From Tridacna crocea (lineage: Eukaryota > Mollusca > Bivalvia > Cardiida > Cardiidae): a DNA stretch of 64,000 nucleotides. The DNA lies in the NCBI GenBank assembly GCA_943736015.1, contig OX031068.1, forward strand, positions 28,342,296-28,406,295. Direction: 5' to 3'. The notes under the pieces are model-generated. The model saw only the letters and a list, made by a program, of their open reading frames with translations. It had not been told where the DNA came from and made no database searches. Shown here in pieces: positions 20,970 to 51,170 of this stretch. How positions within the stretch are numbered: position 1 is the first letter of the stretch; each line of letters starts with the position of its first letter. Both the position numbers and the translations under genes were made by a program.

Positions 20970-21195
20970 TTAACTCCTTACCACATAACAAAGTTTTAAG
21001 ACTTGTCCAAATTGAAAGCATTGGCTATGACAGTTTCTATGTGGCTCATAAGGAATTATTTTTCTTTGATCGATTAGAAAACATTGTGGGAAAAGGGAAA
21101 AAGCTGGTAATCAGCATTTTCTCCTTCACCCACAATGTTTTAAAGTCTTCTCTTTCATGGGGCGTTAAAATTAATCACTATGTGGTAAAGGGTTA
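20970..21195 (-). mobile_element. TTAA-MITE, full length
   Basis: TTAACTCCTTACCACATAAC left end to GTGGTAAAGGGTTAG. Its right TTAG is shared with the next copy. Confidence 0.9.
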
Positions 21196-21423
21196 GCTCA
21201 TTACCAAACGACAATATTTTAGGCTTGTCCACAAATCAAAAGCACTTGTAGACAACAACATAAAGGTGACTGAAAAATTGAAATTTGTTCTGGGAAAGGT
21301 AGAAAAAACTGTAGGAAAAGGAGAAAATGCTGGTTACCAGCATTTTCTCCTTTTCCTACAGTGTTTTCAAAAGGCTTCTTTCTCAGGGGTGTCAAAAGTA
21401 GGGATTGTGTGGTAAAGGGTTAA
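21193..21423 (-). mobile_element. TTAA-MITE, full length, near-perfect hairpin
   Basis: Ends TTAGCTCATTACCAAACGAC and GGTAAAGGGTTAA. The hairpin 21308-21364 carries matched changes in both arms (GTAGG with CCTAC, ACTG with CAGT). Confidence 0.93.
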
Positions 21424-21799
21424 ACACCATTTTAACAGCCTAGGTCATATCACTGCAGTGTAGAGCACTTATGCCTGGCTGTCTCTTGCAAGTACCGACA
21501 CAACTTTCTTTCCAAGTAACTGACTACTTTCTCATTACAGGTGAAAGGTGAAAAAAATGCCTTAAAGAAAACTTGCCTCTTGCATCCACCAGTCATGAGT
21601 ACAATACTCTAACCACTATGCTACCCAGGTGGGCTAACATCATGCGAAATTGGGATAGAACATTTGGTAAGGACACTACATGAGAATAAGTACACAAAAA
21701 CTTTATTTAAGTAACATATAAAAACCAAATACAATTGATAAATATCACAGTACAATATCTCAGTGATGGACTCTTAAAGCTTTGGAATCAACTTAAGAT

Positions 21800-21872
21800 G
21801 TTTTTTCCAGACAACGTAGATTAAGATCAGGCTGCACACAATGTGCAATCTGATCTTGGATCTACCATGTGA
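21800..21872. repeat. Dispersed AGATCAGGCTGC palindromic repeat
   Basis: AGATCAGGCTGCACAC and inverted GTGCAATCTGATCTTGGATC, a quasi-palindrome. Related copies occur at 16165, 17805, 40945, 46405, 47365, 54990 and 63845. Confidence 0.6.
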
Positions 21873-21951
21873 GCTTCATTGTTACATATTCTCCCTTACA
21901 TATGGAAAAAGCAGTAATTTGGCTTCCCCCACCGATACAATGCGTCAATTT

Positions 21952-23390
21952 CATTATGCTCCCCAAAGGGCGAGCATATAGTCGCCGCTTCGTCCGTCCG
22001 TCCTTCCGTCTGTCTGTCTGTCTGTCCGTCCGAAGCCATTTCTCCACAACCCCTGGACCAAATTGGATAAAACTTCATATATGAACTCCTTAGGGTAAGG
22101 CGCCGACGTATCTTTCCTGGTTTTTCCATTTGACCCAGTGTCATGGAAAAAAGGGGCTTAACCCATTACCACACAATCCCTACTTTTGACACCCCTGAGA
22201 AAGAAGCCTTTTGAAAATACTGTGGGAAAAGGAGAAAATGCTGGTAACCAGCATTTCCTCCTTTTCCCACAGTGTTTCTCCCCTTTCCAGAACAAATTTC
22301 AATTTTTCAGTCACCTTTATTTTGTTGTCTACAAATGCTTTCAATTTGGACCTGTCTAAAATTTTCTCGTGTGGTAATGAGTTAATGCAAAATTGCATTT
22401 TTTACCAATATCTCATTCAGTTTTTGTCAAAATTTCATGAAACTTCATGGTTATATTGTTTATGCAAAGATTCAGCATGTACCCTTGCTATTTTTAATCT
22501 AGGCGTTTTTTAAGTTGACGTTCTGTCACGGAAAAAGGGGGTTTCTTGCAAAATTCCAATTTTTATTAATGTCTCATTCAGTTTTGGTCAAAATTTCATT
22601 AAACTTCATGGTTCATGTGCTCTTGTTTCTTTATCTATGTGTTTTTCAATTTGACCCTCTGTCATGGAAAAAGGGGGTTTCTTGTAAAATGCAAAGGAAA
22701 AAGGGGCCTTAATGCAAAATTACTATTTTTAATAATATCTCACTCAGTTTTTGTCAAAATTTCGTAAAACTTCATGGTCATATCTTGTTGTACAAGTTTC
22801 AACATGTTCCCTTGTTATTTTCAATCTATGAATTATTAACGCGCAAATACCTCTTTCCTGGGGTTCTCAATTTGAGGCTGCATCACGGAAAAAGGGGACT
22901 TCATGGAAAAAATTGTTTTTCACTTGTATCTCTTACATCTGTGCTCAAAACTTTGTGAAATATCAAATCTGAATCTGTTGGAACGTTGCCCAGGTACCTC
23001 TCTTCCGGTTTCTCAATTTCAGGCTGCGTCACGGAAAAAGGGGGCTTCATGTAAAAAATCGTTTTATGTAATATTTACTACATGACTGCTCAAAATTTTA
23101 TGAAATTTCGAATTTTGAATTATTATTAAAAAATGCCACAAATCACACACCAGTTGTATTTATTTCAATGATGCAATATTGCCTTATGGGAAAAGGGGGC
23201 TTAGTGAGCTTACTGTCCTCTACAAGTTTGTGTTGGCTATCTCTAAGATAGTAATTGCCTTTTCACTTCAATTTTTGGGGAGCATGAACAGGTCCTGTTA
23301 GGATAAAGGAAGTAAATTTATATTGATTTCATATATTTTATGACAAGCACTTGTTCGGGGAGCATAACCCGTCTCTGACGGCTCTTGTTA
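21952..23390 (+). mobile_element. Pearl-like element P5 with nested MITE
   Basis: Starts with hairpin TATGCTCCCCAAAGGGCGAGCATA, then a CGTCCGTCCGTCC / TGTCTGTC tract (21987-22032). The core repeats a module with CACGGAAAAAGGGGGCTTC, and the right end is GGGGAGCATAACC, inverted to the left. A MITE at 22158-22385 interrupts the first core module. Confidence 0.82.
22158..22385 (+). mobile_element. TTAA-MITE, full length, inside P5
   Basis: TTAA on both sides, CCCATTACCACACAATCC left end and GTGGTAATGAG right end. A sister core module at 22701-22725 shows the empty site with one TTAA. Confidence 0.95.
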
Positions 23391-23407
23391 CTTTATGGTT
23401 CAAGGGC

Positions 23408-23636
23408 TTAACTCTTTACTAAGCAACATAACTTTAGCTTCGTTCAAATTAGAAGCATTTGCAAACAACAAAATTAATGTTACTCAAAAGTTGAACTTTA
23501 GGTTGGGAAGGGTGGAAAACATTGTTGGAAAAGGAGAAAATGCTAATTACCAGCAATTTCTCCTTTTCCCATAATGTTTCCTAAAGGCTTCTTCCTCAGG
23601 GTCGTAAAAACCCCGGAACGTTTGGTAAACTGTTAA
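23408..23636 (-). mobile_element. TTAA-MITE, full length
   Basis: TTAACTCTTTACTAAGCAAC to GTTTGGTAAACTGTTAA; hairpin 23516-23580 with a few mismatches. Confidence 0.9.
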
Positions 23637-24435
23637 AGGTTACTTAGTTTCTATGCAATTAATCAAAATTTCTATAAATACAAAAAAATACAACTAGATA
23701 CATCTTTCTCTGCTACACAAGAGATTGTACAGCTATATTCCATGAAGAGGGGCAATTTTAGGTGTTGAAATAACAGGAATGAGTAACTCTGTATTTCTAT
23801 TACTTCAGACTGATATGATATCAAAATACTAATTTGAACATGAATCCATGCAGTTGACATGTTACTGTTCATGCGAAATTGCCAGTGGTTTTGCAGAACT
23901 CTGGCATAAAAATCTAAAAATATCTAAAGAGGCTATGTAGCCCATTAAGGCAATATCACTGAAACATATTTTTATCTGGCCTGTGTCTTTCTTCTTCACT
24001 GATGACTTGCCAGCTATTAGCACATTTAATTCAGTGATAAATCATTTTTAAAGTTTGGTCAAGATCTTGAAAATCTACACATCTCCCTTTGATATTATGT
24101 AACATTGGCATATCAAGCCAGGGGAGGTTATTCCAAGGTTATCCCCCAAAGAATTTCAAATTAACCACTGTCTACCTGATATTTTGACCAAGTATGAATG
24201 TAGTAGCAGATTCTAGATTATTTCTTTGCACAAGTTTTCAAGCTTGCAGGTCTACTATTATACAAGTATACAAACTGACAGGAAATAAAAACATTTAGTG
24301 CGGTAGTAAATTTGAATACATAATGACCTATTTGATTTTCTGGAACATCCCCACATCTCTCTCCCCCCCCCCCACCTTCAAAAAAAAAAAAAAAAAACGG
24401 ATTTGCCCCTGTGTTAGTATAAGGTAATTGATACT
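23637..24435. other. Spacer without recognised gene
   Basis: Nothing identifiable except a C run followed by an A run near 24363-24397; ORFs here are short and unconvincing. Confidence 0.4.
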
Positions 24436-24664
24436 TTAACCCTTTCCCAAACAATCCCTGGTTTTTACGGGTCAGGAATAGAAGCCTTTTGTAAACACTG
24501 TGGGAAAAGGAGAAAATGCTGGTAACCAGCATTTTCTCCTTTTCCCACAATGTTTTCTACCCTATCATAAAGAAAAATCATCCTTTTAGCAACTGTTAAG
24601 TTTTCATCTGCAGAACGCTTTCAGTTTGGTGTGGTCCAAAATTTGCTGTCTGGGAAAGGGTTAA
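24436..24664 (+). mobile_element. TTAA-MITE, full length (CCCAAAC subtype)
   Basis: TTAACCCTTTCCCAAACAAT left and CTGGGAAAGGGTTAA right; perfect central hairpin near 24496-24553. Confidence 0.93.
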
Positions 24665-24693
24665 CCTAAGCACTTTTAGAAATTACCCTCCCT

Positions 24694-24926
24694 AACCCTT
24701 TACCACACAATCCCACCTTTTGAATGACCCTGAGAAAAAAAGCTTTTGAAAACATTGTGGGAAAAGGAAAAAATGCTGGTAACCACTAACCAGCTTTTTC
24801 TCCTTTGCCCACGATATTTTCTACCTATTCAAGAATAGGAATCATTATTTGAAAACATGTCAATTTTTCCCTGTGAATTTCCTAAATAAAGATGAGTATG
24901 AAATTCTGCTGTGTGGTAAATGGTTA
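24694..24926 (+). mobile_element. TTAA-MITE, near full length
   Basis: CTAACCCTTTACCACACAAT to GTGTGGTAAATGGTTA; an extra ACTAACC duplicates the hairpin tip (24780-24790). Confidence 0.88.
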
Positions 24927-24938
24927 TGCCTTTTCAAC

Positions 24939-25171
24939 TTAACTCTACTCTTTACCACACGACAAAATTTTAGACTGGTCCAAATTGAAAGCATTTGCAG
25001 ACGACAAAAAAAGGTGACTAAAAACTAGAAATTTGTTCTGGGAAGGGTAGAAAACACTGTGGGAAAAGGAGAAAATGCTGGTTACCAGCATTTTCTCCTT
25101 TTCCCACAGTGTTTTCAAAAGGCTTCTTTCTCAGGGGCGTCAAAAGTAGGGATTGTGTGGTAATGGGATAA
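24939..25171 (-). mobile_element. TTAA-MITE, full length
   Basis: Inserted after GCCTTTTCAAC; hairpin 25055-25118 has ACTGTGGG in one arm and CCCACAGT in the other. The duplicated flank at 25609-25632 lacks it. Confidence 0.93.
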
Positions 25172-25224
25172 GCAGAATGTGCTGTTTGACCTAGGAGCTA
25201 CAGGCCAATAATTTGTTCATCTTC

Positions 25225-25381
25225 TTTGACACCACCTCAAACAGTACTTCATATTAATAACCCTGAGACAGATAGAATTTGAAAATATTGTGCGAAAAAG
25301 AGAAAATGCTGATGATCAGCATTTTCTCCATTTCCCACAATGTTGTGTACCTTACAAATCACAAACACAGTCATTTGAGCC
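25225..25381 (+). mobile_element. TTAA-MITE, variant, degraded
   Basis: Hairpin with ATGCTGATGATCAGCAT tip and TGTGTACCTTACAAATC flank; shares this variant flank with the copy at 25661. Confidence 0.7.
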
Positions 25382-25608
25382 TTAACTCATTACACACAAT
25401 CCCTACTTTTGACGACCCTGAGAAAGAAGCCTGTAGAAAACATTGTGGGAAAAGGAGAAAATGCTGGTAACCAGCATTTTATTCTTTTCCCACAATGTTT
25501 TCTACCCTTCACAAAACAAATCTCAAATTTTCAGTCACTTTTATTTTGTCATCTGCAAATGCTTTCATTTGGACAAGTCTACAATTTAATTTTTTGGAAA
25601 AGAGTTGA
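25382..25608 (+). mobile_element. TTAA-MITE, full length
   Basis: TTAACTCATTACACACAATC left, AAAGAGTTGA right, conserved CTTTTATTTTGTCATCTGC block. Confidence 0.92.
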
Positions 25609-25660
25609 GCCTTTTCAACATCAGCAGAATAGGCTGCCTGACCTTGGAGCTACAGCTTCT

Positions 25661-26048
25661 TTAATCCCACATCAAACAACACTGCATATAAACAACCCTG
25701 GGAAAGACAGAATTTGAAAACATTGCAGGAAAAACAGAAAATGCTGATAATCAGTATTTTCTCTGTTTCCCACAATGTTTTGTATCTTAGAAATTGCAAA
25801 CACAATCATTTTAACCACATTTTTATGTCATCTGCAAATCCTTTGAACTTGAACTATGGGAAAGCAGCCAGTGGCTTGGAAAGAAAATTGTGTGAAATAC
25901 TGGGAAAGGAAACTCCAGGAACACATGGATAAGAGCACTTGCCGCCATGATTTACCTGAAATAATGTTGAAAATGGCGTTAATCACCATACAATCAATCA
26001 ATCTGAACTTGAACAAGCCTACAATTTTGCCATGTGGTACAAAGTTAA
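25661..26048 (+). mobile_element. TTAA-MITE, variant, split by a retroposon
   Basis: Left part 25661-25854 and right part 26015-26048 (AAGCCTACAATTTTGCCATG, then TTAA) are one MITE interrupted at its AATTTGGAC-equivalent site. Confidence 0.85.
25855..26003 (+). mobile_element. 5'-truncated SINE-like insertion with target duplication
   Basis: 149 bp flanked by the 11-bp direct repeat TGAACTTGAAC (25844-25854, 26004-26014). It ends in CAATCAATCAATC and contains AATGTTGAAAATGGCGTTAA, the 3' body of a common bivalve SINE-type repeat as I recall it. The 69-codon ORF across it is not a gene. Confidence 0.8.
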
Positions 26049-26206
26049 AAGAAGAATGTGCTTAGTAAGCACAATTTCACCAACTACTTAGTAATGTTTT
26101 TAGACAATAAAAGTATTCAGAAAATGCTTATAATTTTGTCACTATGAATAATATAATCATGTCATAATTATGGAATCTTGAATAATCATATAGGAGTTTT
26201 TAAAAA

Positions 26207-26349
26207 TCAATCCTTTACCACACAACATGTATTACAGGGGATGAAGGCTTTCAAAAACATGGTGGAAAAAGGAGAAAAATGCTGTTTAGCAGTATTATCT
26301 CCTTTTCCCACAAAGTTTTTCGACCTCACAAAAGACAGGACATTGTCTT
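26207..26349 (+). mobile_element. TTAA-MITE, right half missing
   Basis: CCTTTACCACACAAC start and hairpin with tip TGTTTAGCAGT; ends where the next copy's TTAA begins. Confidence 0.75.
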
Positions 26350-26577
26350 TTAACCCATTACCACACAATCCCTTCTTTTGACGACCCTGAGAAAGAAGCC
26401 TTTGGAAAACATTGTGGGAAAAGGAGAAAGTACTGGTAACCAGCATTTTCTCCTTTTCCCACAATGTTTTCTACCCTTCACAATACAAATCTCACATTTT
26501 CAGTGACTTTTATTTTGTGGTCTGCAAATGCTTTTGATTTGGACAAACCTAAAATTTTTATGTTTCGTAAAGAGTTA
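26350..26577 (+). mobile_element. TTAA-MITE, full length, in TMEM254 3' flank
   Basis: TTAACCCATTACCACACAAT to CGTAAAGAGTTA. Provides the minus-strand AATAAA downstream of TMEM254. Confidence 0.92.
26509..26514 (-). promoter_or_regulatory. Candidate TMEM254 polyadenylation hexamer inside a MITE
   Basis: AATAAA on the minus strand about 170 nt past the TMEM254 stop. It lies in the internal AAAATAAAAGT block of the MITE at 26350-26577. I see no other AATAAA between it and the stop. Confidence 0.5.
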
Positions 26578-26584
26578 TGTGACA

Positions 26585-26655
26585 TTAATTTGTTCGTCTG
26601 CGAATGCCTTCACTTCAAAGCAGACTGAAATGTTATGGTTTTTGGTAAAGAGTTG
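26585..26655 (+). mobile_element. TTAA-MITE fragment (right end)
   Basis: GTCTGCGAATGCCTTCAC and TTTGGTAAAGAGTTGA; ends 26 bp from the last stop of TMEM254. Confidence 0.7.
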
Positions 26656-26683
26656 ATTCTACTGCAGTGTCTGTTGCCTTTCA

Positions 26684-26798
26684 TCACTCTGTTTTGGTGT
26701 CTGGTTTGTAATTTGTAAGCCGCAGCAGTGAAGGAAAACCAATGATAAAAGTCTGTAGGCACCACAGAATCGTTACTGGGGTAGAAATACCATGCTTC
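26684..26798 (-). CDS. TMEM254: TMEM254 exon 4 (stop codon exon)
   Basis: Acceptor ATTTTCAG, then 37 codons and a double stop (TGA TGA, 26686-26681). It encodes the ISTPVTILWCLQTF block and a short charged tail. A 73-codon ORF in another frame over the same bases is a shadow; only this frame continues from exon 3. Confidence 0.92.
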
Positions 26799-29700
26799 CT
26801 GAAAATTTATAAAATACAAAAACATGTACATGTATATTACACTCTGTTCTAAACTAAAAGTTGTGCTACACTGACTTATTTACTCTTTTAAGGAATAAAG
26901 AAAGCGGTTTCATACAAAAGAGTGATTAGCTTTTTTTTTTTCATACCTCCATAAAAACAACAACAACAATTCTCTTCACTCCTTTTTGATCTAATTCAAT
27001 ATCGCAGACAACAAAATATGCGCTTAAAAATACTAACTGCTTTTTTCATTGAAAATCTAACATTGCGTATTTATTTAATGTCCATTTCACTCCTAATTCA
27101 TGACGCGGTAAAACTGCTGGTTCATGATGTAACAATGACATATATTTGTGACGTCATTATAGTATTGAACATTTGCAGTTTCAGTAGATTTATTATTAGA
27201 AGTTTGATATGCTAGAAGTAAGTTGAAAATAAGATTGTTAGAACCCAGCAAAGTGAATGACAATGAATTTTCAGCTCTCTCAATGAATTTACTGGTGGAT
27301 AAATTTTTCAATATTTAAATAAATTCAGCTAGCAAGTTGAACTTCATACTCAATAATGATCAGAAATCAGAAAGAAAACCATTATGAAATCTTGTATACA
27401 TGTTTGTTTACATTACTGCAAAAGTAGTCCCTGCACTGCTGAAATTTTTTTTTCATGGAGCTATGAAAAAAAAAATTCAGCCAATCAGAATTTGCCATTT
27501 TTCACGAAAACAACTAATATTGAATTATTACCACATGACAAAATCATAGATTTGTCAAAATTTTAGGAAAGCGTTCGTGTAAGAAAATTTTGCTCAAATA
27601 ACAAAGTTGTCTTTGATAGGATGGAAAACATGAGGGAAAAGGAGAAAATGCTGGTTACCAGCATTTTCTCCTTTACCAACAATGTTTTTTTGAAAATCCT
27701 TATTCAGGGCTGTTTTAAACTCTAAATTACTTGTTAAAGGGTTAAAGAGTTCATATATGTCCAGGATTTCAACAGTGCATGTACTAGGTTGCAGCTCAAA
27801 GATCTCTTGCCCAAGGGCACTCCCACAGAAAACCAAGTGCTTCCAATGAGGTTCAAACTCAGGGTGTCCATTACATTTCACCCTTGAAGGAAATGGCTTT
27901 CACAAATATTGTAGGAAAAGATCAAAATGTTGCTTACAAGCATTTGTAAACTTCTTTCCAATAATGAACAGGTGCCTAAGACAAAATTTTCCACTTCCTA
28001 CACATTAAACTTGTCTGGAAATCCTATCAATTAGGGCAGGTCGACTTTTTTCTGTTTGTCTTAGAAATCACTAAAAGTTATGAAAGGGCAAAATTTATGA
28101 CATATCCTATGTTTATAGCATTTGAAGATAAAGTGTGGCTAAGATGATAGGATTTCTTTTGGATAGGGTTAAAAACTTTATGGGAAAAAGAGAAAATGCT
28201 TGTCACCAGCATTTTCCCCCACACCCACTCACCAGCATTTTCTCCCATACCCACAACAAAGTTTTCAAAAGCCTTTTTTTCCTGGTCCTAAATGCCCGTC
28301 ATTGTGTACTGAAGGTTCAGAGTATCTCAAAATGTAGAAATTGTATCAAATCAGTCAACAAAAATAATAAAACAGTTCAGCAAAATATAATTTGACCATT
28401 ATATCAAAGTACAAGCACTTGTTACTACTGAGCCAAGTTTCAGACTGTTTACAATTTTATGCTACACATGTATTTTTTCCAGTCAACCATTCTTTTTCAT
28501 GTAGCAAGTATGATCTGAAAAGCTTTCTACTGTGGTCTTTAAAAGTTTATAATACTGGAATACTTACTTCATCAACCAGCCATTCAATCACTCAATATGG
28601 CACGCAACATGCAAAAGGAGGCATTTGGCCATTTGCATAAAGTATAGTCTCAGATCAGCATCCACAGTCCGCAAAGGCATATCAGACACCGCATTTTATG
28701 ACAACATTAGGTTTTGTCCTGTAGTAGACTTGCGCCAAACAGAAAATTACAAAAAAAAAAGAAAGTGTCATTTCTGAATAGTCCATGCGAACTGCGCAGG
28801 CTGATCAGAGATATACTTTAAGCAAACATCAGGAAGCCCCCTTTTCTAGTGTTGCAGGCTATATATAACTTTACCTGCAAAGCTTGACAGCATAGACAGC
28901 CTCACCAACATGAACAATTACTGTGGAACCTAATCTGGAAAGAGACAATTAGATCTTTACCAAACCACAAAATTTTAAACTTGTCTAAATTTGGAAAAAA
29001 TAAATGTGACTGAAGAATTGAAATTTGTTGCAGGAATGATAGAAAACATTGTTGGAAAGGGAAAAAATGCTGGTTACCAGTATTTCCTCCTTTTCCCACA
29101 TTGTTTTCAAAATGTCTTCTTTCTTAGGGTCATTAAAGTCGTGATTATGTGCTAATGGGTTATGTGGTAATGTGTTAAAGAATAATTCAGCAGGAATGAA
29201 CCTGACATGGTCCTCTTCAGAATTCCTTGAAAGAATTTTTTTTCCTTCAAAAACTGTGGTTGTGATGGCAACAAAACTGAAAAAATTTGGAAATTTTTAA
29301 AAATCTTCTTCTCTGAAACCATAAGGCCTAGGGCTACCAAATTTGGCATGTAGCTTTATCAAGTGACCTCTACCAAGTTCCTACAAATAATAGCCCTGGG
29401 GTCAAAACTGACACCCCCCCAGGGTTCACAAGTTTCATATGGGCTTATATAGGGAAAACTTTAAAATTGTACTGGTACTTAGCCATACAGCCTATGGCTA
29501 CCAAATTTGGCATGTATCTTTATCAACTGATTGTCTACCAAGGGTGCCCAAGTGATAGCTCAAGGGTCAAATTCAGCCCGGCCCCGGTGGTCACAAGTTT
29601 TATTTGGGCTTATATAGGGAAAACTTTAAAAAATCTTCTCGTACCAAGCCATAAGGCCTAGGGCTACTCAATTTTGCATCTAGTTTTATCAAGTGGTTGT

Positions 29701-34266: not shown

Positions 34267-34267
34267 G

Positions 34268-34900: not shown

Positions 34901-34929
34901 TAGACAATTTCGAGTTTTAGCACTTAGCA

Positions 34930-37790: not shown

Positions 37791-37824
<34 letters not shown>
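37791..37824. repeat. (ATAG)n microsatellite
   Basis: About eight uninterrupted ATAG units, then degenerate copies to about 37856. Confidence 0.95.
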
Positions 37825-37859
37825 TAGGTAGATCGATAGATTTACCAGGTAGATAGATA

Positions 37860-39968: not shown

Positions 39969-40200
39969 TTAACCCTTTAGTACCAGACAAGCCCTGGTTT
40001 TTATGACCCTGAGGGAGTAGCCTTCTGAAAACATTGTAGGAAAATGAGAAAATGCTTGTAACCAGCATTTTCTCCTTTATCTACAATGTTTTCTACTCTT
40101 CTAGGGTAAAGTGTCAATTTGTGAGACAGGTTTATTTTGTCATCTGCAAATGCTTTCAATTTGGACAAGTCTAAAGTTTTGCCATTTGGTAAAGAGTTAA
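39969..40200 (+). mobile_element. TTAA-MITE, full length
   Basis: TTAACCCTTTAGTACCAGAC to CATTTGGTAAAGAGTTAA; hairpin arms partly mismatched. Confidence 0.9.
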
Positions 40201-40212
40201 GTAATAGAAATT

Positions 40213-40350
40213 TATCTTTTTACCATGCATTCCTAAGTTTTAATGACATAAAAAGAGCCATCTTAAAAACATTGCAGGAAAAGGAGAAAATGCTGGTATT
40301 CAGTATTTTCTCCTTTTCCTAAAATATGTTTCTATCCTTTAATACGGTTA
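40213..40350 (+). mobile_element. TTAA-MITE, right end missing
   Basis: TTTTACCATGCATTCC start and hairpin with tip GGTATTCAG. Confidence 0.7.
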
Positions 40351-40379
40351 TTGGTATTTGCTGAAAATGTTTTATAACT

Positions 40380-40515
40380 TAACTATTTCCCTAACAAATC
40401 TGTATTTTTATTTCCATGAAGGAGAAAGTTACAGACAACATTGTAGGAGAATGAGTAAATGCAGGTAACCAGCCTCTTCTTTGTGGTCCCAAATGTGTTC
40501 CATCACATTACAGAC
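40380..40515 (+). mobile_element. TTAA-MITE, variant remnant
   Basis: ACATTGTAGGAGAATGAGTA and CCCAAATGTGTTCCATC; sister of 37160-37277. Confidence 0.55.
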
Positions 40516-41610
40516 AAATCTTAACCATTCTACTCCAGTAAGACATACATGTGTCTGTATATATACTGTCAATTTGGGCAAGTCTACAGTTGTATTAAAG
40601 ATGTTCTATGATCATAGGATCTAACTGTCTACTATTTTTGTGATACAGTTGGGCAAAAGGACACTTAACCCTTAGGCTGCTAAGCATGACTCACTAACCT
40701 TTTGCAGACAGCTTAGGCCAAAAAAAAAACCTTTTTGTGTTTAGGGTTTTCCTACCCTACCTGGAAAATGCTGCCAACCCTAAACTTTTTCACCATGATT
40801 GAAAAAAAAAAATTATCAGTTGGGTGTGATTTCATTATATATTCTTTTTAGGAAGTTTTTGTGGGAAAAAAATAAATCACTACCTACCCTACCTACAGTA
40901 TCTCGGGCTGAAAATGTAAACATAGTTTTTTTTTTGTTAAGCCTTAGATCAGGATCAGACTGCATGTTCAGTTCTTGGATCTACACTTTCTGATATGGGT
41001 GTCCATGTATTATTCCCCAAAACATTACTTTGAAACAGCAATATTTGGGTTTTTACGATAGATTTGACAATTTTGTATTAGCTATTTGGCAGGATGAGGG
41101 TAAAATGTAAATAAGAAATGCTCTGTGAAAACAGGGTTTGTGCATTCTTTAGAATGGACTGATCAAGATCAAAATGCACAGTCAATGCAGGCTGACCTAG
41201 TTATTTCCTTTTTCTTTTGCTATTGGTTAATTTTCTGCGTGTCAAACAACCAATTTACCTCAAGGTTCCTTTGGTTGTTAGACAGAATTGATTTTATGGG
41301 TCCATTTTGATGGGACAATGCGCTTGGTAAAATACATCACACATTTAACTCCCTTATGCCAGCAAAGAACTCAAATGGATTTGATCCATTTTCCATGTGT
41401 AGAGCATCATTCTTATTGATGTAGCACACTTACCTTTGCGCCCATTCTCAATAAAACGGAACATTCAATGTTCCATTGTTTATCATGAATATCTTTGCTT
41501 ATTCCTACAAGTATTAGTCATTTGCAGGAAGATATCAATTGGGTACATTGAGACAGATAAAATTTTCTGAGAAATTTGTATTAATTTTCGCATGTGGTCA
41601 CCATTTTAGT
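40516..41610. other. Spacer with dispersed AGATCAGACTGC repeat
   Basis: 40945-40995 carries GATCAGGATCAGACTGC and TTGGATCTACAC. No convincing exon found. Confidence 0.4.
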
Positions 41611-41618
41611 CCCAAAAT

Positions 41619-43748
41619 GAAACATACGTTACTGTCTCCATTTCAATTTTTCAATTTCAAGCTTGTACCCAGACGACCAAAAGATTGAAATACTTAATAC
41701 AATTTGTCTGAGGCAAAGTTTGTTGTGTCAGGTTTGTAACACTATGCCTAGATTCATATTTACCCATACCTGGTCGGTTTGATTCATTTTTATTTAATGT
41801 TGCCAAATTCTGAAAAATAAAATTTGCCTATAATCGGATGTACCGCCTACCTCCGCATCAAGATACAATAAGGTTTATACTAAAAATTACACACTTAAAC
41901 AACAATTAAACAACACAGTATATAATCACCATCAAGAAATAATATCAGACTACTTGTCATAATCTTTAATTTCAAGAAAAATGAGCATTTATTTGAAGGA
42001 CCCGTTTTTTTCAATATCAAATTGAAACAAACGTTACCATGGTTTTATGCAAAACTATTGTAGGAATATAGCTGTAAAAAATCACATGTATCAGTGAATA
42101 GTCTATTATTATAATACATTAAAATTGCCTTAAACATGTAGAACAAGACGTTGTCAGAACACCTCCAAAGTCTGAATGAAACATACGTGACGAAACATAC
42201 GTGACTGTTAAAAAATTCTTTTCATTTTCTAGATGATGGTGAACTTATCATAAAGATAACTTTGTCATTCTTTTATTTCTGATGATGTGATATGACATCA
42301 CTATTAACGATTTTGACATGTTCTGCTGTTGAAAAAGGTCTAATTTTTCTGTTGATTTTGTGAATTTCATCAGGGCATTGTATATGTCAGGTGAGATTGC
42401 TCTTACAAGACTATTTTTTTCATTGTTCATATGTGGCCGATGATTTTTCACTATAAGTAGTTGATGAATATTTTCTGGAACACAGTAAATACGTACCCAT
42501 TATTTCTCGTACTTTTTGTACGGCATCCAAACACACTGAAACATACGTTACAAAAGGTAACGTATGTTTCACATTGAAAACATTCTATTTTAAGCTCTAG
42601 TAATTCACTTTGGTCAGGAAATTGATACATAAATAGATGTTTAGATACAAATTTAACAGTTTTAGAAAATGTTTACATACAAAGTGTATTTTTTTTTACA
42701 GAAGGACAGAAAAATCTCTCTTTTTCTAGAATTATAATATGAAAACTATTATAACTCAACATAATATTAGTCTTTCAACAGAAAATCGAAAATTTGATTT
42801 TAATTGTTAGAAATATCGTTAATTAAAGACAATATCATAGATATTTTCAAATCAAGATATATCTATTGGGAAAGAGAAAGCTTCTATTTAAAAGAATCTG
42901 GTAAAATGTGCGATTCTTTGAATGTCTTTGAAAACAAAACAGAAAGTATGGAAAGGACTGACACCCCGTCATCTTCAATCCAATCATATGCTAAAGCAGA
43001 TTACATTGCTGCTAACTCTGAAAGGAGCTGGTATGATGATCTGATTCTAAAGGTTGACAACAATAGCGATGGTTTTGACTACAACGTTATACTTTTATGC
43101 AAAGAAAAAAGGATTTTTTTTCAACTTGATCAATTTATGACAGGTAACATAAGCAACCTTTAGATATCTGGTTTTTCTAAACATGCGTTATCTAATTTGC
43201 GTGAATTGACAGCCTGCCATTCTCAAAGCAAGAACACGGTGTTACATTTTTTAAGGAAAAAATGGAATGAAAAACCTTTTGAATAACCAAATTTAAAACA
43301 ATTACTGACATGTGCATGTTTGATTACAAGAAATGACTATAAACACTTTCGGATGTTTGTTTGAAACTTACGTTAACATGTAGCGCCTGCACAGTGTTGA
43401 CTTATAATCAATAGTCTGATAAAGAACATTGTTGACATTTTGTTTTAAATATTTAAAGTTGGCATCAATGTTGCAGTTCTTATTAAGAATGAAAGATTAG
43501 ATGCCAAAATTATAGTTGGAAAATGAGCGAAATCTAAGTTTGACAATATTTTGAAGTTTTTTTAAAAAAAAATCTAATGTAGAATGTTATTACTTCAAAT
43601 AAAAAAGTAAGTTCTTTGTTTAACTGTATCATTTTTGCGTTATCGGAGTCTTTTTGTGCTGAAAAGATATCCCTATCTATATAGTCCTGGAACCTGTTTA
43701 GTAATTTTACAAAAGAAACACATAAGTAGTCAAGGAAACATACGTTAC
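41619..43748. repeat. Domain with eight scattered GAAACATACGTTAC motifs
   Basis: Copies at 41619-41632, 42024-42037 (variant), 42178-42191 and 42192-42205 (GTGAC variants, back to back), 42538-42551, 42557-42570 (inverted), 43363-43376 (variant) and 43735-43748. The 42538-42570 pair forms a perfect 14-bp inverted repeat with a 5-bp spacer. Free of MITEs. Function unknown. Confidence 0.75.
42804..43163 (+). CDS. Unidentified 119-codon ORF, possible exon or element gene fragment
   Basis: Open from 42804 to TAG at 43161-43163 with no visible tandem repeat or MITE inside. The second half (ADYIAANSERSWYDDLILKV) has a mixed, protein-like composition, and a donor-like CAG/GTAACAT occurs at 43143 after FMTG. 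Its WYDDLILKVD core vaguely recalls a module of uncharacterised invertebrate proteins (DW.Y.G.ILEVD pattern), but I cannot name it. It sits in the centre of the GAAACATACGTTAC domain. It could be a decayed element gene, an exon, or chance. I make no functional claim. Confidence 0.3.
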   Translation: MLEISLIKDNIIDIFKSRYIYWERESFYLKESGKMCDSLNVFENKTESMERTDTPSSSIQSYAKADYIAANSERSWYDDLILKVDNNSDGFDYNVILLCKEKRIFFQLDQFMTGNISNL

Positions 43749-43968
43749 CAACGAAAAAGGGTATCCTAAATGAATCATATTTTTTTCCGAAATGGAGTTA
43801 ATGATGTTCGCAGTATTTTGGGAAATCATTCTACATAGGTGTATCTTTGAAAGAGGATGTATATTTCTCAAATTTGCAGATGTCATTTTTTCGATTTTTC
43901 TTGTCCCTGAATGTCCCTGAATGTTCCGTTTTATTGAGAATGGGCATTTTGTTAGAAAACTGGGGCTT

Positions 43969-44517
43969 TAGTGGATGGCATAGATAAATACATAAAGTGG
44001 ATGGCATAGATAAATACATAAATACATGTATATAGAGTAAAGTGGATGGCATTATGAATACATGTACATAAATACATAGAGTAAAGTGGACGGCATACAT
44101 AAATACATAAATACATAGAGTAAATTGGACGGCATTGTAAATACATGTACATAGAGTAAAGTGGACAGCATTATAAATACATAAATACATAGAGTAAAGT
44201 GGACTGCATAGATAAATACATAAATACATAGAGTAAAGTGGACGGCATTATAAATACATAAATACATAGAGTAAAGTGGATGGCATTATAAAAACATGTA
44301 CATAAATACATAGAGTAAAGTGGACGGCATAGATAAATACATAGAGTAAAGTGGACGGCATAGATAAATACATAAATACATAAAGTGGACGGCATAGATC
44401 AATACATAAATACATAGAGTAAAGTGGATGGCATTATAAATACATAGAGTAAAGTGGATGGCATAGATGAATACATAAAAACATAGAGTAAAGTGGATGG
44501 CATAGATAAATACATAG
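43969..44517. repeat. Minisatellite, GGAYGGCAT / AAATACATAGAGTAAAGT unit
   Basis: About 15 irregular copies of a 28-43 bp unit, with variable numbers of the AAATACAT sub-repeat. The minus strand lacks stops over long stretches in more than one frame, so overlapping Tyr/Ile/Cys/Met-rich ORFs arise; these are not genes. Confidence 0.95.
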
Positions 44518-44714
44518 ATCAAGATCAGATATCACAGAACACAGTCATACTGTCATCTTGAATCAATACTGTGTTCTTGTTTACTCAAGCATAATTGTAT
44601 ATACTTCATTTACCCTGACCCTACTGAAAATTATTTGCATTAATTAATTTTCTATTTTTACTATTTTTCTATTTTTTCTATTTTTACCTTCGGCATAGCT
44701 CATTGCATGTTCGG

Positions 44715-44900
44715 AATGGTCTTGGGAAATATTTTGGGAAAAGGAGAAAAAGGCTGGTAACCGACATTTTCTCCTTTTCGTACAGTGTTTTCTTCCCTTC
44801 CAAAATTAAATTTCAATTTTACAGTCACTTCTATTTTGTAGTCTGCAAATGCTTTCAATTTGGACCAGTCTAAAATGTTGTCATTTGGTAAAGAATTAAT
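44715..44900 (+). mobile_element. TTAA-MITE, left end missing
   Basis: Hairpin from TTTTGGGAAAAGG, then GTCTGCAAATGCTTTCAATTT and ATTTGGTAAAGAATTAA. Confidence 0.85.
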
Positions 44901-44964
44901 CTACTAGATAAGTTAATTGAAAATTTCAAGTCAAGAATATAAAAAAGCAAGCAAATTGCAAGTT

Positions 44965-46377
44965 TTTATACCCCTGCAAAACGAATGTTTTAGGGGGTAT
45001 ACTGGAATCAGCCTGTCTGTATGTGTGTCCGTCAGACCGTGTGTCCGTCTGTATACAAAATACCAGTTGACACTCTAGCATCTAAAATTAATGGCCAATC
45101 AGCACCAAACTTGGTCAAAACATATATGACTATAAGATCCTGGATGAATTTGATTATGGGTCTTATTTGACTGCAAAAACTGGGAGTTATTTGCCCTTCA
45201 AATAGAAAAATTGCTATATTTGACTTTGTTTCTACTCTAGCATCTACATTTATAAACCAATCTTCACCAAACTCGGACAAAATATATATGACCATAAGAT
45301 CTCGAATGAGTCTGACTATTGGTCTAATTGGACTAGAACAAATAGAATTACTTGCCACTGAATTAGAAAAATTGCTATATTTCACTTTTTTACACTGTAG
45401 CATCTACAAATATCAACCTAAGAGCACCAAAAATTTTTCAAAATATACATGATTATAACATCATGGATATGTTTGATTATGGGTCTAATACAATCCAAAG
45501 GACATGAGTTATTTGCCCTTAAATTAGAAAGTTCTTTAGAATAGTGCTTTAGTCAGAGCATAACGTTGTCATCTCCAGTATGATTGACTTGAAACTTGGC
45601 ATTTAAATTCTTTGCAATAATACGGATTGAAGATTGAAAGGACTATAACTCTACCTCATACTGTCTATGAGTTATTATCCTTTGATTCTCATTTTTACCG
45701 CATTTTCTGCTCATCTGCAATATGACTTTGTCATCTCCAGCCTGTACATCTTCAAATTTGGTATGCATGACTGTTGAAAAATTACAGAGCACAGTGCTCA
45801 AGAACCATAATTCTTCCTAGTACAAATTTCGAGTTATTCCCCCTCTCACCTTCATTTTATAGCATTTCTTGCCTGTCCGGAGCAAAACTTTGTCATCGTA
45901 AGTAGGAATGACTTGAAATCTGGTATGCTTACCGGTATTTGTTGCAATATTTGAAAGTGCTGTTCACAAGAATTGTAACTCTACCTCATATTGTCTTTGA
46001 CTTATTTCCCTTTGAATGTCATTTTTACAGCACTTAGTGCTTGTCTAGTATATAACTTTGTCATCTCAAGTCAGAATTGATGAATGAATGAATGTTGTTT
46101 TATGGTGCATCGACAGCTTTGGTCATTTAGCATGCATATCTGTGTTAAAAGATAATAAAAGTAGAGTTGTTTAAACTGAATAAAGTTTGAATACCTCAAG
46201 TCGGAAGGACTTCAAACATGGTATGCATGTTTGTTGCAATATTAACGAGTACAGTGTGCAAGAACATTAACTGTATTTAGCAATCATCTGTGTGACTGTA
46301 CAAAATACTACTAACTGTCTGTTACTGTCAAAGAGCTGGTGGGGGCATTTAGTCACATTCAGCGAAAGCTCTAGTTT
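44965..46377 (+). mobile_element. Pearl-like element P6
   Basis: Starts with hairpin TATACCCCTGCAAAACGAAT GTTTTAGGGGGTATA, then TGTGTCCGTCAGACCGTGTG. Core monomers of about 160 bp in two types (ATATATGACTATAAGATC type, and AGTTATTTCCCTTTGA type). Right end GGTGGGGGCATTTAGTCAC and AGCTCTAG. Split by the retroposon at 46077-46194. A 123-codon minus-strand ORF is monomer read-through. Confidence 0.72.
46077..46194 (-). mobile_element. Short retroposon insertion with 12-bp target duplication
   Basis: 118 bp between CTCAAGTCAGAA (46065-46076) and CTCAAGTCGGAA (46195-46206). The left edge has GATGAATGAATGAATG, i.e. an (ATTC)n tail on the minus strand, preceded by a SINE-like TGCACCATAAAACAAC body. 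Confidence 0.75.
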
Positions 46378-46394
46378 TTCAGCGAAATATCTCC

Positions 46395-46495
46395 TCATTG
46401 GACATTGTAGATCAAAGATCAGAAGACTGCAAGTTCTGTGCAGTCTGATCTTGATATACACTGCCTGCAAAAGCACCTTGAAACGCACTTTGTAG
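46395..46495. repeat. Dispersed AGTCTGATC palindromic repeat
   Basis: GATCAGAAGACTGC and GTGCAGTCTGATCTTGATAT form a quasi-palindrome, followed by ACACTGCCTGCAAAAGCACC. Confidence 0.6.
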
Positions 46496-46620
46496 GCTAA
46501 ATTGCATACCTATCTATATACATACCTCTCTGTTTATATATTTACTTACCAAATAATAGTTGGAGTTCAAGTTGTATGCCTACCGGTACGTCGGTATTCA
46601 TTATTAAGGTCTGGATCAGG

Positions 46621-46849
46621 TTAACCCTTTCCCAAACGACAAATTTTTGGACTAGACCAAATTGAAAGCATTTGCAGACGACAATTCAACTCTTGCTGGA
46701 AAGATGATTTCTGTCTACGATAGGGTAGAAAACATTGTGGGAAAAGGAGAAAATGCTGGTTACCAGCATTTTCTCCTTTTCCCACAATGTTTTCAAAAGG
46801 CTACTCTTCCAGACCCGTAAAAATCAGGGATTGTTTGGGAAAGGGTTAA
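46621..46849 (-). mobile_element. TTAA-MITE, full length (CCCAAAC subtype), perfect hairpin
   Basis: TTAACCCTTTCCCAAACGAC to TTTGGGAAAGGGTTAA. The hairpin at about 46731-46797 has 33-bp arms around a single central T. Confidence 0.96.
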
Positions 46850-46854
46850 GTCAT

Positions 46855-47062
46855 AACATAACGACTATATTTTAGGCTTGTCCAAATTGAAAGCACTTGC
46901 AGATGACAAAATGAAAGTGACTGAAAATTTGAAATTTGTTTTGTGAAGGGTAGAAAACGTGGGAAAATGAGAAAATGCTGGTTACCAGCATTTTCTCATT
47001 TTCCCACAATGTTTTCTAAAGGCTTCTTTCTCAGGGTCATCAGAACTGTGTGGTGGGGGTAG
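46855..47062 (-). mobile_element. TTAA-MITE, ends eroded
   Basis: Hairpin 46961-47005 with matched ATGAG and CTCAT in the two arms. Confidence 0.85.
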
Positions 47063-47158
47063 AGTAGATTCTACCGGTATTTTTCAGCCATTGAAATATG
47101 TTACATGTATATATAAGCATTGTTCTGTGAACACGGGGTTTAATACATCTCCATTTCT

Positions 47159-47360
47159 TTAACTCTTTACCACACGAGAAAATTTTAGATCAGTCCAAAT
47201 TAAAAGCATTAGCAGATGACAAAATAAATGTGATTCGAAAATTGAAATTCAGTTAGGGAAGGGTAGAAAACATTGTGGGAAAAGGAGGAAATGCTGGTCA
47301 CCAGTCCCCAATGTTTTCAAAAGGCTTCTTTCTCAGGGTCGTTAAAAGTCGGGATTGTGT
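47159..47360 (-). mobile_element. TTAA-MITE, hairpin right arm deleted
   Basis: TTAACTCTTTACCACACGAG left end; the arm breaks off at GGTCACCAGTCCCCAATG; ends GTCGGGATTGTGTA. Confidence 0.85.
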
Positions 47361-47538
47361 ACATTTTGTGCAGTCTGATCTTGGTCTGCACCTTCTGCAA
47401 AAGGTCAGTAAGTCACGCTCAGCAGCTTAAAGGTTAACCTGCTTTTCACAGTGCATTGACCACAATGAATGTTTGTCAATTAGATATATAAGTATATACA
47501 TGGTGCAGGATGAGATATGGAGGATATTTGTTCTTTCA

Positions 47539-47662
47539 GTGAAAGATCGAAATTTGTTTCATCGAGTGAACACCATTGGCAACATTTTCACGAGTGGTAC
47601 AGCCAAAAGTGAAAATATTACCGAAGGTGTTCATGAGATGAAATAAATTTCAACCTTTCACC
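47539..47662. repeat. Inverted repeat, 36-bp arms
   Basis: GTGAAAGATCGAAATTTGTT (from 47539) mirrors AATAAATTTCAACCTTTCAC (to 47661), with about 50 bp between arms. Possible element terminus or hairpin; the following 47,663-48,000 is a dispersed-looking stretch with a 94-codon ORF of no recognised family. Confidence 0.7.
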
Positions 47663-48246
47663 AAAAAAAAAAATATTCTATTTATTTCTTGCTTTTAACC
47701 CTTTCTGGGTGGAGCTTTATCAAAATCCAGTTCAGTTCTTTTCCGTTATTCCCTGTGGCATACTCCTACCGCAGAGCAAAGCATTACAATATTACGTCAA
47801 GCACCGGAAATGTAAGGTAAATGACATCATATTTCCATCTGGTTGTGAGGGCATGTGCAATTTACCTACTGGTCTTTCTAGTGTAATACTGAAAAATATT
47901 TTCACTGCTATTTCTCGATATCCCATCGGAAAGCATGAAATAAGAACTAATACTCAATGCAGATGCATTAAACTCCCTTTTCACAGAGCATGACTCATAT
48001 TCGGCCTTCAAAAATACAATGGTGGGATGGCAGAAAATAAAAAGGCACAGTAAACTGTTGATTCTTAGACCATTTTTACTGCATGAAAATTGTTAACTTA
48101 TATAAAATGCAATCATTCATAAATAATATCAGAAAGAACAACAAAAAAAGTACATAAAGTAACATTATAGTATATATTACAATAAATTCTCTGTTTTGTG
48201 GTTTAGCAGATCAGTGCAGATCAAGATAAGAATGCGTAACTTTCCT

Positions 48247-48696
48247 GAACCTTGACCAAACGACAAATTTTTGGACTGAACAAATTGAAAACATTTACAC
48301 ATGACAAAAGTAGATGTTACTGAACAACTCAAATTTGTTTTGGGAACAGAAGAAAACATTGTGTTAACTCATTACCACACGAGAAAATTTTAGACTGGTC
48401 TAAATTGAAAGCATTTGCAGACGACAAAATAAAGGTGACTGAAAAATAGAAATTTGTTCTGGGAAGGGTAGAAAACACTGTGGGAAAAGGAGAAAATGCT
48501 GGTTACCAGCATTTTCTCCTTTTCCCACAGTGTTTTCAAAAGTCTTCTTTCTCAGGAGCATCAAAAGTAGGGATTGAGTGGTAATGGGTTAAAAGGAGAA
48601 AATGCTGGTTATCAGCATTTTCTCCTATTAACTCAATGTTTTCAGAGGGCTTCTTCCTTAGGGTCATGAAAACCAGGGATGCTTGGTAAAGGGTTG
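48247..48696 (-). mobile_element. TTAA-MITE split by a second MITE
   Basis: Outer copy: 48247-48363 (TTGACCAAACGACAAATTTT to GAAAACATTGTG) and 48593-48696 (AAGGAGAAAATGCTGGTTAT to TTGGTAAAGGGTTGA). The join falls within its left hairpin arm. Confidence 0.93.
48364..48592 (-). mobile_element. TTAA-MITE, full length, nested in another copy
   Basis: TTAACTCATTACCACACGAG to GAGTGGTAATGGGTTAA with perfect hairpin; TTAA on both sides inside the host hairpin. Confidence 0.96.
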
Positions 48697-48881
48697 AATT
48701 TTGCAGGTGACCAGGTAAAGGCGACCCGAATTAAAAATTTTGTCTTGGATTACTTTACTACTGTGATAAATTACTCCAGTCCAAACAGACTCCAAATGTT
48801 GGACTATTTATCATTTATCGAAAATGTCCTTTTTGTAAATTCAGCCCTCCAGAGAGATACATGTAATATTCAAAATATTAT

Positions 48882-49110
48882 TTAAACTTTTACCACACAA
48901 TCCCTGATTTTTTCAACCCGAATTAGAATCCTCTTGAAAACATTGTGAGAAAAGGAGAAAATTATGGTAACCAGCATTTTCTCCTTTTCCCACAATGTTT
49001 ACTACTCATCTTAGGTCAAGTTTCAATTTTTGAGTTAACATTTATTTTGTGGTCTGCAAGTGCTTTCAATTTGGATCAGTCTAAAATGTTGTCATTTTGT
49101 AAAGGGTTAA
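48882..49110 (+). mobile_element. TTAA-MITE, full length
   Basis: TTAAACTTTTACCACACAAT to CATTTTGTAAAGGGTTAA. Confidence 0.93.
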
Positions 49111-49121
49111 AGTATGACAGA

Positions 49122-49349
49122 TTATCCCTTTCCCAAACGACAAATTTTGGACTCTTCCAAACCAAAAGAGTTTGCAGACGACAATTTTAGATGTGGAGAA
49201 AATGGCAGAAAGTTCTCAAAAAGGGTAGAAAACACTGTGGGAAAAGGAGAAATTGCTCATTACGAGCAATTTCTCCTTTTCCCACAGTGTTTCCAAAAGA
49301 CTTATACTGCAGACACATAAAAACCAGGGCTTGTTTGGGAAAGGGTTAA
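49122..49349 (-). mobile_element. TTAA-MITE, TTGCTC-hairpin subtype
   Basis: TTATCCCTTTCCCAAACGAC to TTTGGGAAAGGGTTAA. The hairpin tip is AATTGCTC / GAGCAATT instead of AATGCTGG / CCAGCATT; same subtype as 50942-51170. Confidence 0.94.
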
Positions 49350-49711
49350 GCAAGCTTTTTCCGACACTCAATTTAAAGGAACTCAGAATCGTTTTCCTAT
49401 TTCAAGCATATTTTAGTAATAATTTCATCTTTTGTTGTTATTGTTGTTTTTTGAAACATCGTAACCCATCCATGAATAACAAGCAAATAAATATCTGAAT
49501 AAACAAAACAATTGAGGATAGCAATAATAATACATGGGGATGTTAACACTCGGATATAAGAAGCGCATGTTTTTGTCGGAGTTTATACAAGAAAATGTTG
49601 ACCAGACTATCACAATGCCTCAATGTTTTCTTTAAAAACTGGAAGTGAACCCAAATTATGCTTTGACTGTAATTTCAATAAATGCACCCATCTGCCCATT
49701 GTAGTACAGGT

Positions 49712-49940
49712 TTAACTCTTTACCAGACTACAAAATTTTAGACTGGGCCAAATTGAAAGCTCTTGCAGATGCCAAATTAAACATAATTCAAAAATTGAAA
49801 TTTATTTCCAGTAGGGTAGAAAACATTGTGGGAAGAGGAGAAAATGCTAGTTACTAGCATTTTCTCCTCTTCCCAAAGTGTTTTCATATGGCTTCTTTCT
49901 CAGGGTTGTTAAAAGTCCAGATTTTGTGGCAAAGAGATTA
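49712..49940 (-). mobile_element. TTAA-MITE, full length, covarying hairpin
   Basis: TTAACTCTTTACCAGACTAC to GTGGCAAAGAGATTA. Arms read GGAAGAGGAG and CTCCTCTTCC, and GCTAGT and ACTAGC. Confidence 0.93.
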
Positions 49941-50039
49941 CAGCTGACGAATGTTCTATTTTTTTCACCTTAGGATCCTGTTTTAATGAACCTCAGGAAA
50001 TGGCCCTCTAAAATCCTTTTCCAACAAGTTTTCTACACT

Positions 50040-50220
50040 TTAATCCTTTACCAAATAATTCCTGGATTTTATGCCCTGAGATAGAAGGCTTCTGAAAACA
50101 TTGTGGTAACCAGCATTTTCTCCATTTCCCACACTGTGAAGAACTTGTCTAAAATCAAGTTAAAATTTTTGAGTCACTTTATTTTGTCATCTACAAATGC
50201 TTTCAAGTTTGTCTCAGGAC
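50040..50220 (+). mobile_element. TTAA-MITE, internally deleted
   Basis: TTAATCCTTTACCAAATAAT; the left hairpin arm goes straight from ACATTGTGG to TAACCAGCATTTTCTCC; right end lost. Confidence 0.82.
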
Positions 50221-50717
50221 TGTTAAAGTTCAGGTGAAAGGCTCAAAGAGCGACAAAAAGGATAATGATTTGAAAGCAATAAAATAGTATGGATAAGAGT
50301 ATGTACCAAGCACAAATTTCTCCTTATTTCACAAAAATTTGGCAAAAAAGAAAGACAACAACATACACTTGTACACCAATCAGTTGTAAACATCTCACGA
50401 TTTGTTCTGTCTATACATTAAAATTAATACAGTAGTTAACATACATTCATTTTCCTCATATCTCCATTTTATATTTTTTTCATACATTTCATAAGAAATA
50501 CACTGGAATGGTTATACATGTACAATTAACTGTTAAAGTATGCATGATGAATGACACTACTTGTAAGCAATATTTATTTCTGCCGACTAGGTGAGAAACA
50601 ATTTCTTGGCCAGCAATCAAGTTGAACTTTTGCTCATGAGTTAACATACTACTTGAAGTAAGTTTATTTATGATATGCATCTTTACTTGGGTAAGTAAAT
50701 TGGCCTTTGGTCTCTCT
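50221..50717. other. Spacer without recognised gene
   Basis: AT-rich; no element or exon identified. Confidence 0.35.
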
Positions 50718-50914
50718 CAACCCTTTACCAGTCAACAAAATTTTAGCCCTGTCCAAATTGAAAGCATATGTAGCCAACAATTTCAATGTGGCTCAAACAA
50801 TGCAATTGTCTAGTGATAGGGTAGAAAACATTGTGGGAAAAGGAGAAAATGCTTTTTTCAAAAGGCTTCTTTCCAAAGGTCGTCAAAAGTTGTCATTGTG
50901 TGGGAAAAGGTTAA
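50718..50914 (-). mobile_element. TTAA-MITE, hairpin right arm deleted
   Basis: CAACCCTTTACCAGTCAAC; the arm GGAAAAGGAGAAAATGC joins directly to TTTTTTCAAAAGGCTTC; ends GTGGGAAAAGGTTAA. Confidence 0.85.
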
Positions 50915-50941
50915 GAGTTGGTAACGAGTACAGTCAAACTG

Positions 50942-51170
50942 TTAACCCTTTCCCAAATAACAAATTTTAGACTCTTCCAAACTTAAAAGAGTTTGCAGAC
51001 AACAATTTCAAATTTGATGAAAATAGTAGAAAGTTCTCCTAAAGGATAGAAAACACTGTGGGAAAAGGAGAAATTGCTCGTTATGAGCAATTTCTCCTTT
51101 TCCCACAGTGTTTTCAAAAGACTTGTACTGCAGTCACGTAAAAACCAGGGCTTGTTTGGGAAAGGGTTAA
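50942..51170 (-). mobile_element. TTAA-MITE, TTGCTC-hairpin subtype
   Basis: TTAACCCTTTCCCAAATAAC to TTTGGGAAAGGGTTAA; hairpin 51048-51113 with AATTGCTCG / TGAGCAATT. Confidence 0.94.

Follow-up and report, generated by a model that had tools for sequence, protein, structure and literature searches.

Paired substitutions in the palindromic centre of an abundant transposable element of Tridacna crocea exceed shared ancestry

A 64,000-nucleotide stretch of the genome of the bivalve Tridacna crocea (the window, that is, the whole stretch analysed; C13:28342296-28406295, in a genome of 1,048,827,098 bases, ~1.05 Gb, on 31 contigs) carries numerous copies of a ~229-bp miniature inverted-repeat transposable element (MITE) with TTAA ends, and these copies raise the question of how the two arms of a hairpin inside them come to carry matching substitutions. 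The hairpin is a central palindrome of 67 bp, composed of two 33-bp arms and a 1-nt centre. An initial annotation of this DNA had pointed to several copies in which a change in one arm is matched in the other, and had proposed either copying between arms or selection for a foldback. All of the strings that it quoted are found in the sequence, and the five stretches tested all fold as hairpins, with z values of -12 to -15 (DNA energies). Its premise that independent mutation breaks pairing also stands, as all 33 positions are paired in 25 of 205 well-preserved copies. The filter for these 205 copies used pairing and hence favours pairs; the later sets (217 copies onward) judge each arm separately, and such arm-by-arm filters leave out strongly decayed copies.

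The arms covary beyond shared ancestry. On a tree built from flank columns alone, after filtering that took no account of pairing (217 of 276 unique copies retained), the tips carry 26 complementary double changes, compared with 6.4-7.7 when the arms are simulated independently, and 6 non-complementary doubles, compared with 10-12; internal branches carry 9 complementary doubles against 0.6-0.7 simulated, and 1 non-complementary double against 1.0-1.3. A pair model with 16 states, in which the arm-matching rate c is scaled to the per-site mutation rate and the consensus is imposed at the root, gives a likelihood-ratio test (LRT) value for arm matching of 128 in the set used before enlargement to 242 copies (78.6 without pairs 8, 26, and 31), and the same columns paired in eight scrambled ways give 0-1.7. 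In the 242 copies, the value is 111.9 (69.6 without these three pairs; 126-193 over 10 bootstrap trees), compared with 0-2.5 for five scrambled pairings, and it is 106.9 (73.9) in 237 copies, from which five near-duplicates were removed, and 108.8 in the 181 copies outside the window. A systematic sample of 29 regions of 5 kb (145 kb; L039-L046 and L117-L137), picked solely by position, gives 42.8 on its own (61 copies; 14.7 without the three pairs). The paired substitutions are thus real and beyond chance, and descent from a few master copies, which the initial annotation had itself set against its proposal, does not account for the covariation seen on the flank-only tree.

The examples first singled out are genuine, but they are selective, because single-arm changes dominate. 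The 242 copies (307 rows less 2 identical ones, of which 63 of 305 fell below the arm filter; L001, which is part of the window, L027, and L114 and L115, identical to L113, were left out) comprise 7,933 pair cells, with 7,184 intact, 640 single-arm, 90 complementary, and 19 non-complementary. The 36 usable copies of the window hold 1,034 intact, 119 single-arm, 22 complementary, and 2 non-complementary cells. Two to five paired changes are carried by 25 of 244 copies, for which inheritance, age, and tract copying are all possible sources.

Several of these examples are, moreover, inherited paired states. The pairing of CACTGTG with CACAGTG, attributed to many copies, corresponds to pair 8 (CACTG/CAGTG) and occurs in 27 of the 205 well-preserved copies, a count that is inflated because L002-L008 entered the set as the best matches of a pair-8 copy. 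Pairs 26 and 31 occur in 8 and 7 copies, mostly mutual nearest neighbours by flank, and the carriers include the copies cited at 49241 and 51048. Copies that share the same double state (2-8 carriers, pair 8 omitted) have a median flank rank of 0.025 over 76 carrier pairs, with 62% within the nearest 5% and 49 contributed by pairs 26 and 31, whereas copies sharing the same single state have a median rank of 0.39 over 707 carrier pairs, with 12% within the nearest 5%. Some double states, at pairs 19, 20, and 32, occur in unrelated copies (median ranks 0.73-0.97). Together, pairs 8, 26, and 31 hold 44 of the 86 complementary cells in the 237 copies.

Matching is stronger on branches that leave descendants in the sample. 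In the fit with an LRT of 128, the arm-matching rate is 3.9 at the tips and ~196 on internal branches, with a contrast LRT of 54; the corresponding rates are 3.0 and 290 in the 242 copies and 3.1 and 339 in the 237 copies, and the contrast is 52-55 across the three fits. The ratio of paired to single changes is 9:50 on internal branches and 26:515 at the tips (odds ratio 3.6, p 0.004). A young set of 97 copies, selected by the 3' flank alone (100 among the matches listed, all within the first 14.3 Mb of contig 1, minus 3 duplicates), gives a c of 1.5 times the mutation rate (LRT 4.3), with losses of 2.2 log-likelihood units (lnL) at c = 0 and 2.7 lnL at c = 4, and contains 199 single-arm, 11 complementary, and 2 non-complementary cells. 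With c only 1.5, settled copies therefore retain their mismatches and matching occurs mainly in propagated lineages; copies decay mostly through unpaired changes. In four young copies (L014, L026, L031, and L088), a deletion has removed an arm or the greater part of the palindrome, as expected for an unstable palindrome.

The sequence of the arms is constrained as well. The ratio of internal to tip rates is 0.22-0.32 in the arms and 0.34 in the left terminal inverted repeat (TIR; first 30 columns), compared with 0.60 in the right flank, 0.52-0.73 in randomly held-out flank, and 1.06 in the 40 columns left of the hairpin. Variants reaching a frequency of 10% occur in none of the 66 arm columns of the young set, as against 15 of 101 columns in the left flank (p 0.0005). 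Arm sequence in propagating lineages is thus about as constrained as the left TIR, and the palindrome appears, from these substitution patterns, to behave much like a functional MITE end.

The paired states lean towards an origin by copying between arms, which falls short of proof. With equal parameters, one-step copying exceeds two-step, spectrum-limited compensation by 3.9-4.0 lnL in the 217 copies; 60 simulations under two steps average -6.7 (sd 3.9), with one reaching the real value of 3.9, and 30 simulations under one step average 9.6, with a minimum of 0.1. The advantage of one step is 2.2 lnL on the best tree of the 242 copies, 3.0-11.6 on 10 bootstrap trees, and 2.3 in the 237 copies. 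The near-equal ratios of transitions to transversions among singles (285:216) and doubles (28:20) were dropped as proof of copying in favour of this calibrated likelihood test, because, set against a proper null, the tips show 19:7 versus 4.3:2.1 simulated.

The explanation that we favour, with moderate confidence, is that the palindrome works in propagation, that source lineages keep their pairing, and that paired states arise partly or mainly by one-step arm copying and are then inherited. The palindrome would be needed for propagation, so that only copies with a paired palindrome would become sources; candidate roles are a symmetrical site for a transposase dimer and a foldback used during the transposition cycle. 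One arm may be copied from the other in a single step, by quasi-palindrome template switching or repair, a step for which the support is weaker, and the new paired state would then be passed on within its subfamily. Varied paired states survive at many positions, and pairing itself therefore seems favoured over one fixed binding sequence; the conserved arm sequence, for its part, would speak for binding. Of the two processes originally proposed, selection in source lineages is supported, by few internal events, and copying is mildly supported as the origin of pairs, but it is weak in settled copies.

Several observations weigh against this explanation. The contrast between tips and internal branches drops to an LRT of 11-13 without pairs 8, 26, and 31, and is then not significant in the window plus the systematic sample (2.1) or in the systematic sample alone (0.0). 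The internal rate depends on few events (nine), and the internal/tip odds ratio spans 0.63-6.1 over 136 bootstrap trees (median 2.9); the flank trees are noisy and their internal branches few. The internal deficit is partly generic, because the held-out flank itself has a ratio below 1, and the right flank of the young set outside the anchor likewise has 0 of 24 variable columns (3 of 17 in the left TIR), the right side of this set being conditioned by the search pattern, which favours low right-flank variability. The young set was modelled as a star, which is an assumption, with pair 8 omitted from the fit of c. Young copies with more diverged flanks do not carry correspondingly more mismatches (slope 0.10, intercept 0.059), and perfect pairing at birth is accordingly not demonstrated; the regression on flank divergence was uninformative as a gauge of mismatch at birth and was dropped. 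The difference between one-step and two-step origins is -1.0 to 2.8 lnL in the systematic subsets and -1.0 in the window alone. The idea that the arm is a copy of the TIR within the element was rejected, as the best p value among 12 comparisons (0.03) is not significant.

Among the alternatives, two-step compensation holds that a mismatch cuts propagation and that an independent second mutation restores pairing without arm copying. It explains maintenance at the source level equally well, and the edge of one-step copying is small (2.2-4.0 lnL on the best trees, and as little as stated above in the window-only and systematic subsets), but the observed value was reached once in the two-step simulations and all 10 bootstrap trees of the 242 copies favour one step, and we consider this alternative unlikely. 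Arm-to-arm correction by template switching or cruciform repair, acting on every copy at all times, would make selection on the palindrome unnecessary. The tip excess of complementary doubles, the matching detectable in the young set, and the mild preference for one step all agree with such constant correction; however, the young set keeps its many single-arm cells and loses at least 2.7 lnL at c of 4 or more, matching is greater on internal branches, and correction of this kind does not by itself predict the constraint on arm sequence in source lineages, all of which leaves it rather improbable. We are just as doubtful of correction coupled to transposition, in which the excised or single-stranded element would fold, arm mismatches would be repaired, and new copies would be born matched. 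Weak matching in settled copies together with very strong matching on propagating branches is the pattern that it predicts and that the fits display, and, if it were true, the MITE would proofread its own palindrome.

Selection on a transcribed RNA hairpin, the small-RNA source of the initial annotation, is very unlikely, although the palindrome would fold strongly as a single strand (DNA energies). The counts of G-T and A-C mismatches are 60:63 in young copies, 152:133 in the 205 well-preserved copies, 271:229 in 244 copies, and 191:154 in the 237 copies (~2 s.d.). This is at most a slight G-T excess, confined to the larger sets, and therefore gives little support to a wobble route at the RNA level; such counts mostly reflect post-insertion changes and are a weak test for source lineages. 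Shared ancestry of a few masters with coincidence, already disfavoured, is hardly credible as the sole cause, since, even though pairs 8, 26, and 31 mostly mark subfamilies, the excess persists on the flank tree when they are removed and is missing from scrambled pairings.

The favoured explanation, in which the palindrome works in propagation, concerns an element with several features of a piggyBac-type MITE. The consensus has TTAA at either end, in keeping with the TTAA target duplication of this type, and TTAAC/GTTAA lies near both termini in 14 of 39 full-length window copies, near one terminus in 21, and near neither in 4. The termini, including TTAA, match at 15 of 17 bases in the young consensus and 17 of 17 in subfamily B. 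A short TIR beginning CC[C/T]T is the sequence criterion given in the available text of PMC2872659; subfamily B has CCCTTT at both ends, and the young consensus has CTCATT on the left and CCCATT on the right. The element is small and non-coding, at 229 bp, and stop-to-stop frames in the window reach at most 138 aa (frames of at least 110 aa considered). The hairpin is present in 102 of 106 spanning MITE matches in the window and 21 further regions, and the possibility that the palindrome is an element of its own, nested inside the MITE, was rejected, as 0 of 136 hairpin matches in the same material fall outside MITE matches.

The element is abundant in the window and beyond. Its 79 matches cover 23.7% of the bases of the window, on both strands, and the reversed window used as a control contains none. 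The systematic sample contains 147 matches, or 1.01 per kb (bootstrap 0.79-1.24), which cover 18.2% of its bases (14.2-22.4%), and 2 of the 29 regions contain no match; by extrapolation, the whole genome would hold about a million matches, of which many are fragments. Exact matches to a strict 3'-flank pattern number 7,724 in the genome, compared with 0 for its backward control. Some MITE copies adjoin or overlap by a few bases at their ends, in both orientations (window 61009-61925, 60162-60620, and 20964-21429), as if the element inserts into its own terminal TTAA.

Features of the window and the copies discussed (positions in the window)
Feature	Coordinates	Strand	Remarks
MITE copy cited in the initial annotation	21193..21429	+	palindrome ~21302-21368, centre T at 21335
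MITE copy, pair 8 C-G type	22150..22393	-	
MITE copy, perfect palindrome	24938..25175	+	palindrome 25050-25116
MITE copy	46856..47055 (match range)	+	palindrome ~46953-47016; stretch 46961-47005 paired ATGAG/CTCAT, pair 19 (T-A)
MITE copy, perfect palindrome with 33-bp arms, 1-nt centre, pair 8 C-G	48363..48592	+	palindrome 48471-48537
Subfamily B copy	49118..49356	+	palindrome ~49228-49294; paired marks 8, 26, 31
MITE copy	49705..49944	+	palindrome ~49819-49885; stretch 49831-49874 paired at 17 (G-C) and 31 (A-T)
Subfamily B copy	50937..51175	+	palindrome 51049-51115; paired marks 8, 26, 31; G-T at pair 32
Field of 79 MITE matches	15877..64000	both	some adjoining

Individual copies illustrate both inherited marks and decay. 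The first copy in the table (stretch 21308-21364) has paired changes at pair 8 (C-G) and pair 12 (A-T), and the latter is shared with L002, its best other match in the genome, which is 94% identical and lies on another chromosome. The outer left arm of the copy at 46856..47055 is 3 bases shorter than the consensus. The stretches 49241-49290 and 51048-51113 represent one subfamily with different flanks; the former copy has an A-C mismatch at pair 32, probably in a former CpG context, and the pair-32 mismatches of subfamily B may be two CpG decays. Systematic regions L039-L046 and L117-L121 have an observed/expected ratio of 0.59 for CpG and 1.21 for TpG, and CpG decay is therefore likely. Other repeats were observed alongside the element: a tandem array with a period of ~1.88 kb occupies window positions 1-15000 (landmarks 629, 2506, 4390, 6271, and 8152 onward), and a 166-bp tandem repeat of ~6 copies, which can also be read with a 332-bp period, occupies 18303-19489. 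The MITE copies L113, L114, and L115 (C1, 14.01, 14.09, and 14.17 Mb) are identical across aligned columns at a spacing of 80-84 kb, which suggests a recent large tandem duplication.

Several known systems resemble parts of this picture. Transposases of the piggyBac superfamily bind palindromic sites, and the ends of piggyBac and piggyBat, as described in the available part of PMC11707139, likewise have internal palindromic sites in end recognition by a transposase dimer of the same superfamily; those palindromes are 14-19 bp and near the tips, whereas the one read here from sequence is 67 bp and central in the MITE. Template switching from one arm to the other has been described as giving rise to matched changes (PMC8794818, available text), compensatory pairs there likewise being explained by copying one arm onto the other; that work concerns RNA genes, with enrichment over simulation only where there are several compensatory changes, whereas the MITE is a DNA element with mostly single pairs. 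Quasi-palindrome mutations in yeast, in the accessible portions of PMC3820800 and PMC8604942, similarly extend the identity of imperfect inverted-repeat arms, but those cases are experimental or gene-level, and the MITE is mobile, with source lineages. The nearest MITEs found are the piggyBac-like CMITEs of Acropora corals, for which the available text of PMC2872659 describes TTAA duplications, CCCTTT-type ends in several families, a non-coding sequence, tandem arrays, and an interior whose conservation across families exceeds that of the TIRs and is left unexplained. CMITEs are ~100 bp, and their copy number in A. millepora is estimated at 1,600, compared with ~229 bp and the roughly million extrapolated matches in T. 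crocea, and neither "palindrom" nor "hairpin" occurs in that text, in contrast to the 67-bp covarying palindrome here. No report of covariation in a MITE hairpin was found among the titles and abstract openings of the matches listed in the open-access literature, outside which most subscription papers lie, and this does not prove absence.

The million or so related hairpins extrapolated for this one genome amount to a natural experiment on whether a paired state originates in a single copying event or in two mutations together with selection, in which settled copies gauge mutation and correction without selection and source lineages gauge constraint. A long palindrome is thereby indicated, from sequence comparison, as a probable functional component of a TTAA MITE occupying about one-sixth of the genome.

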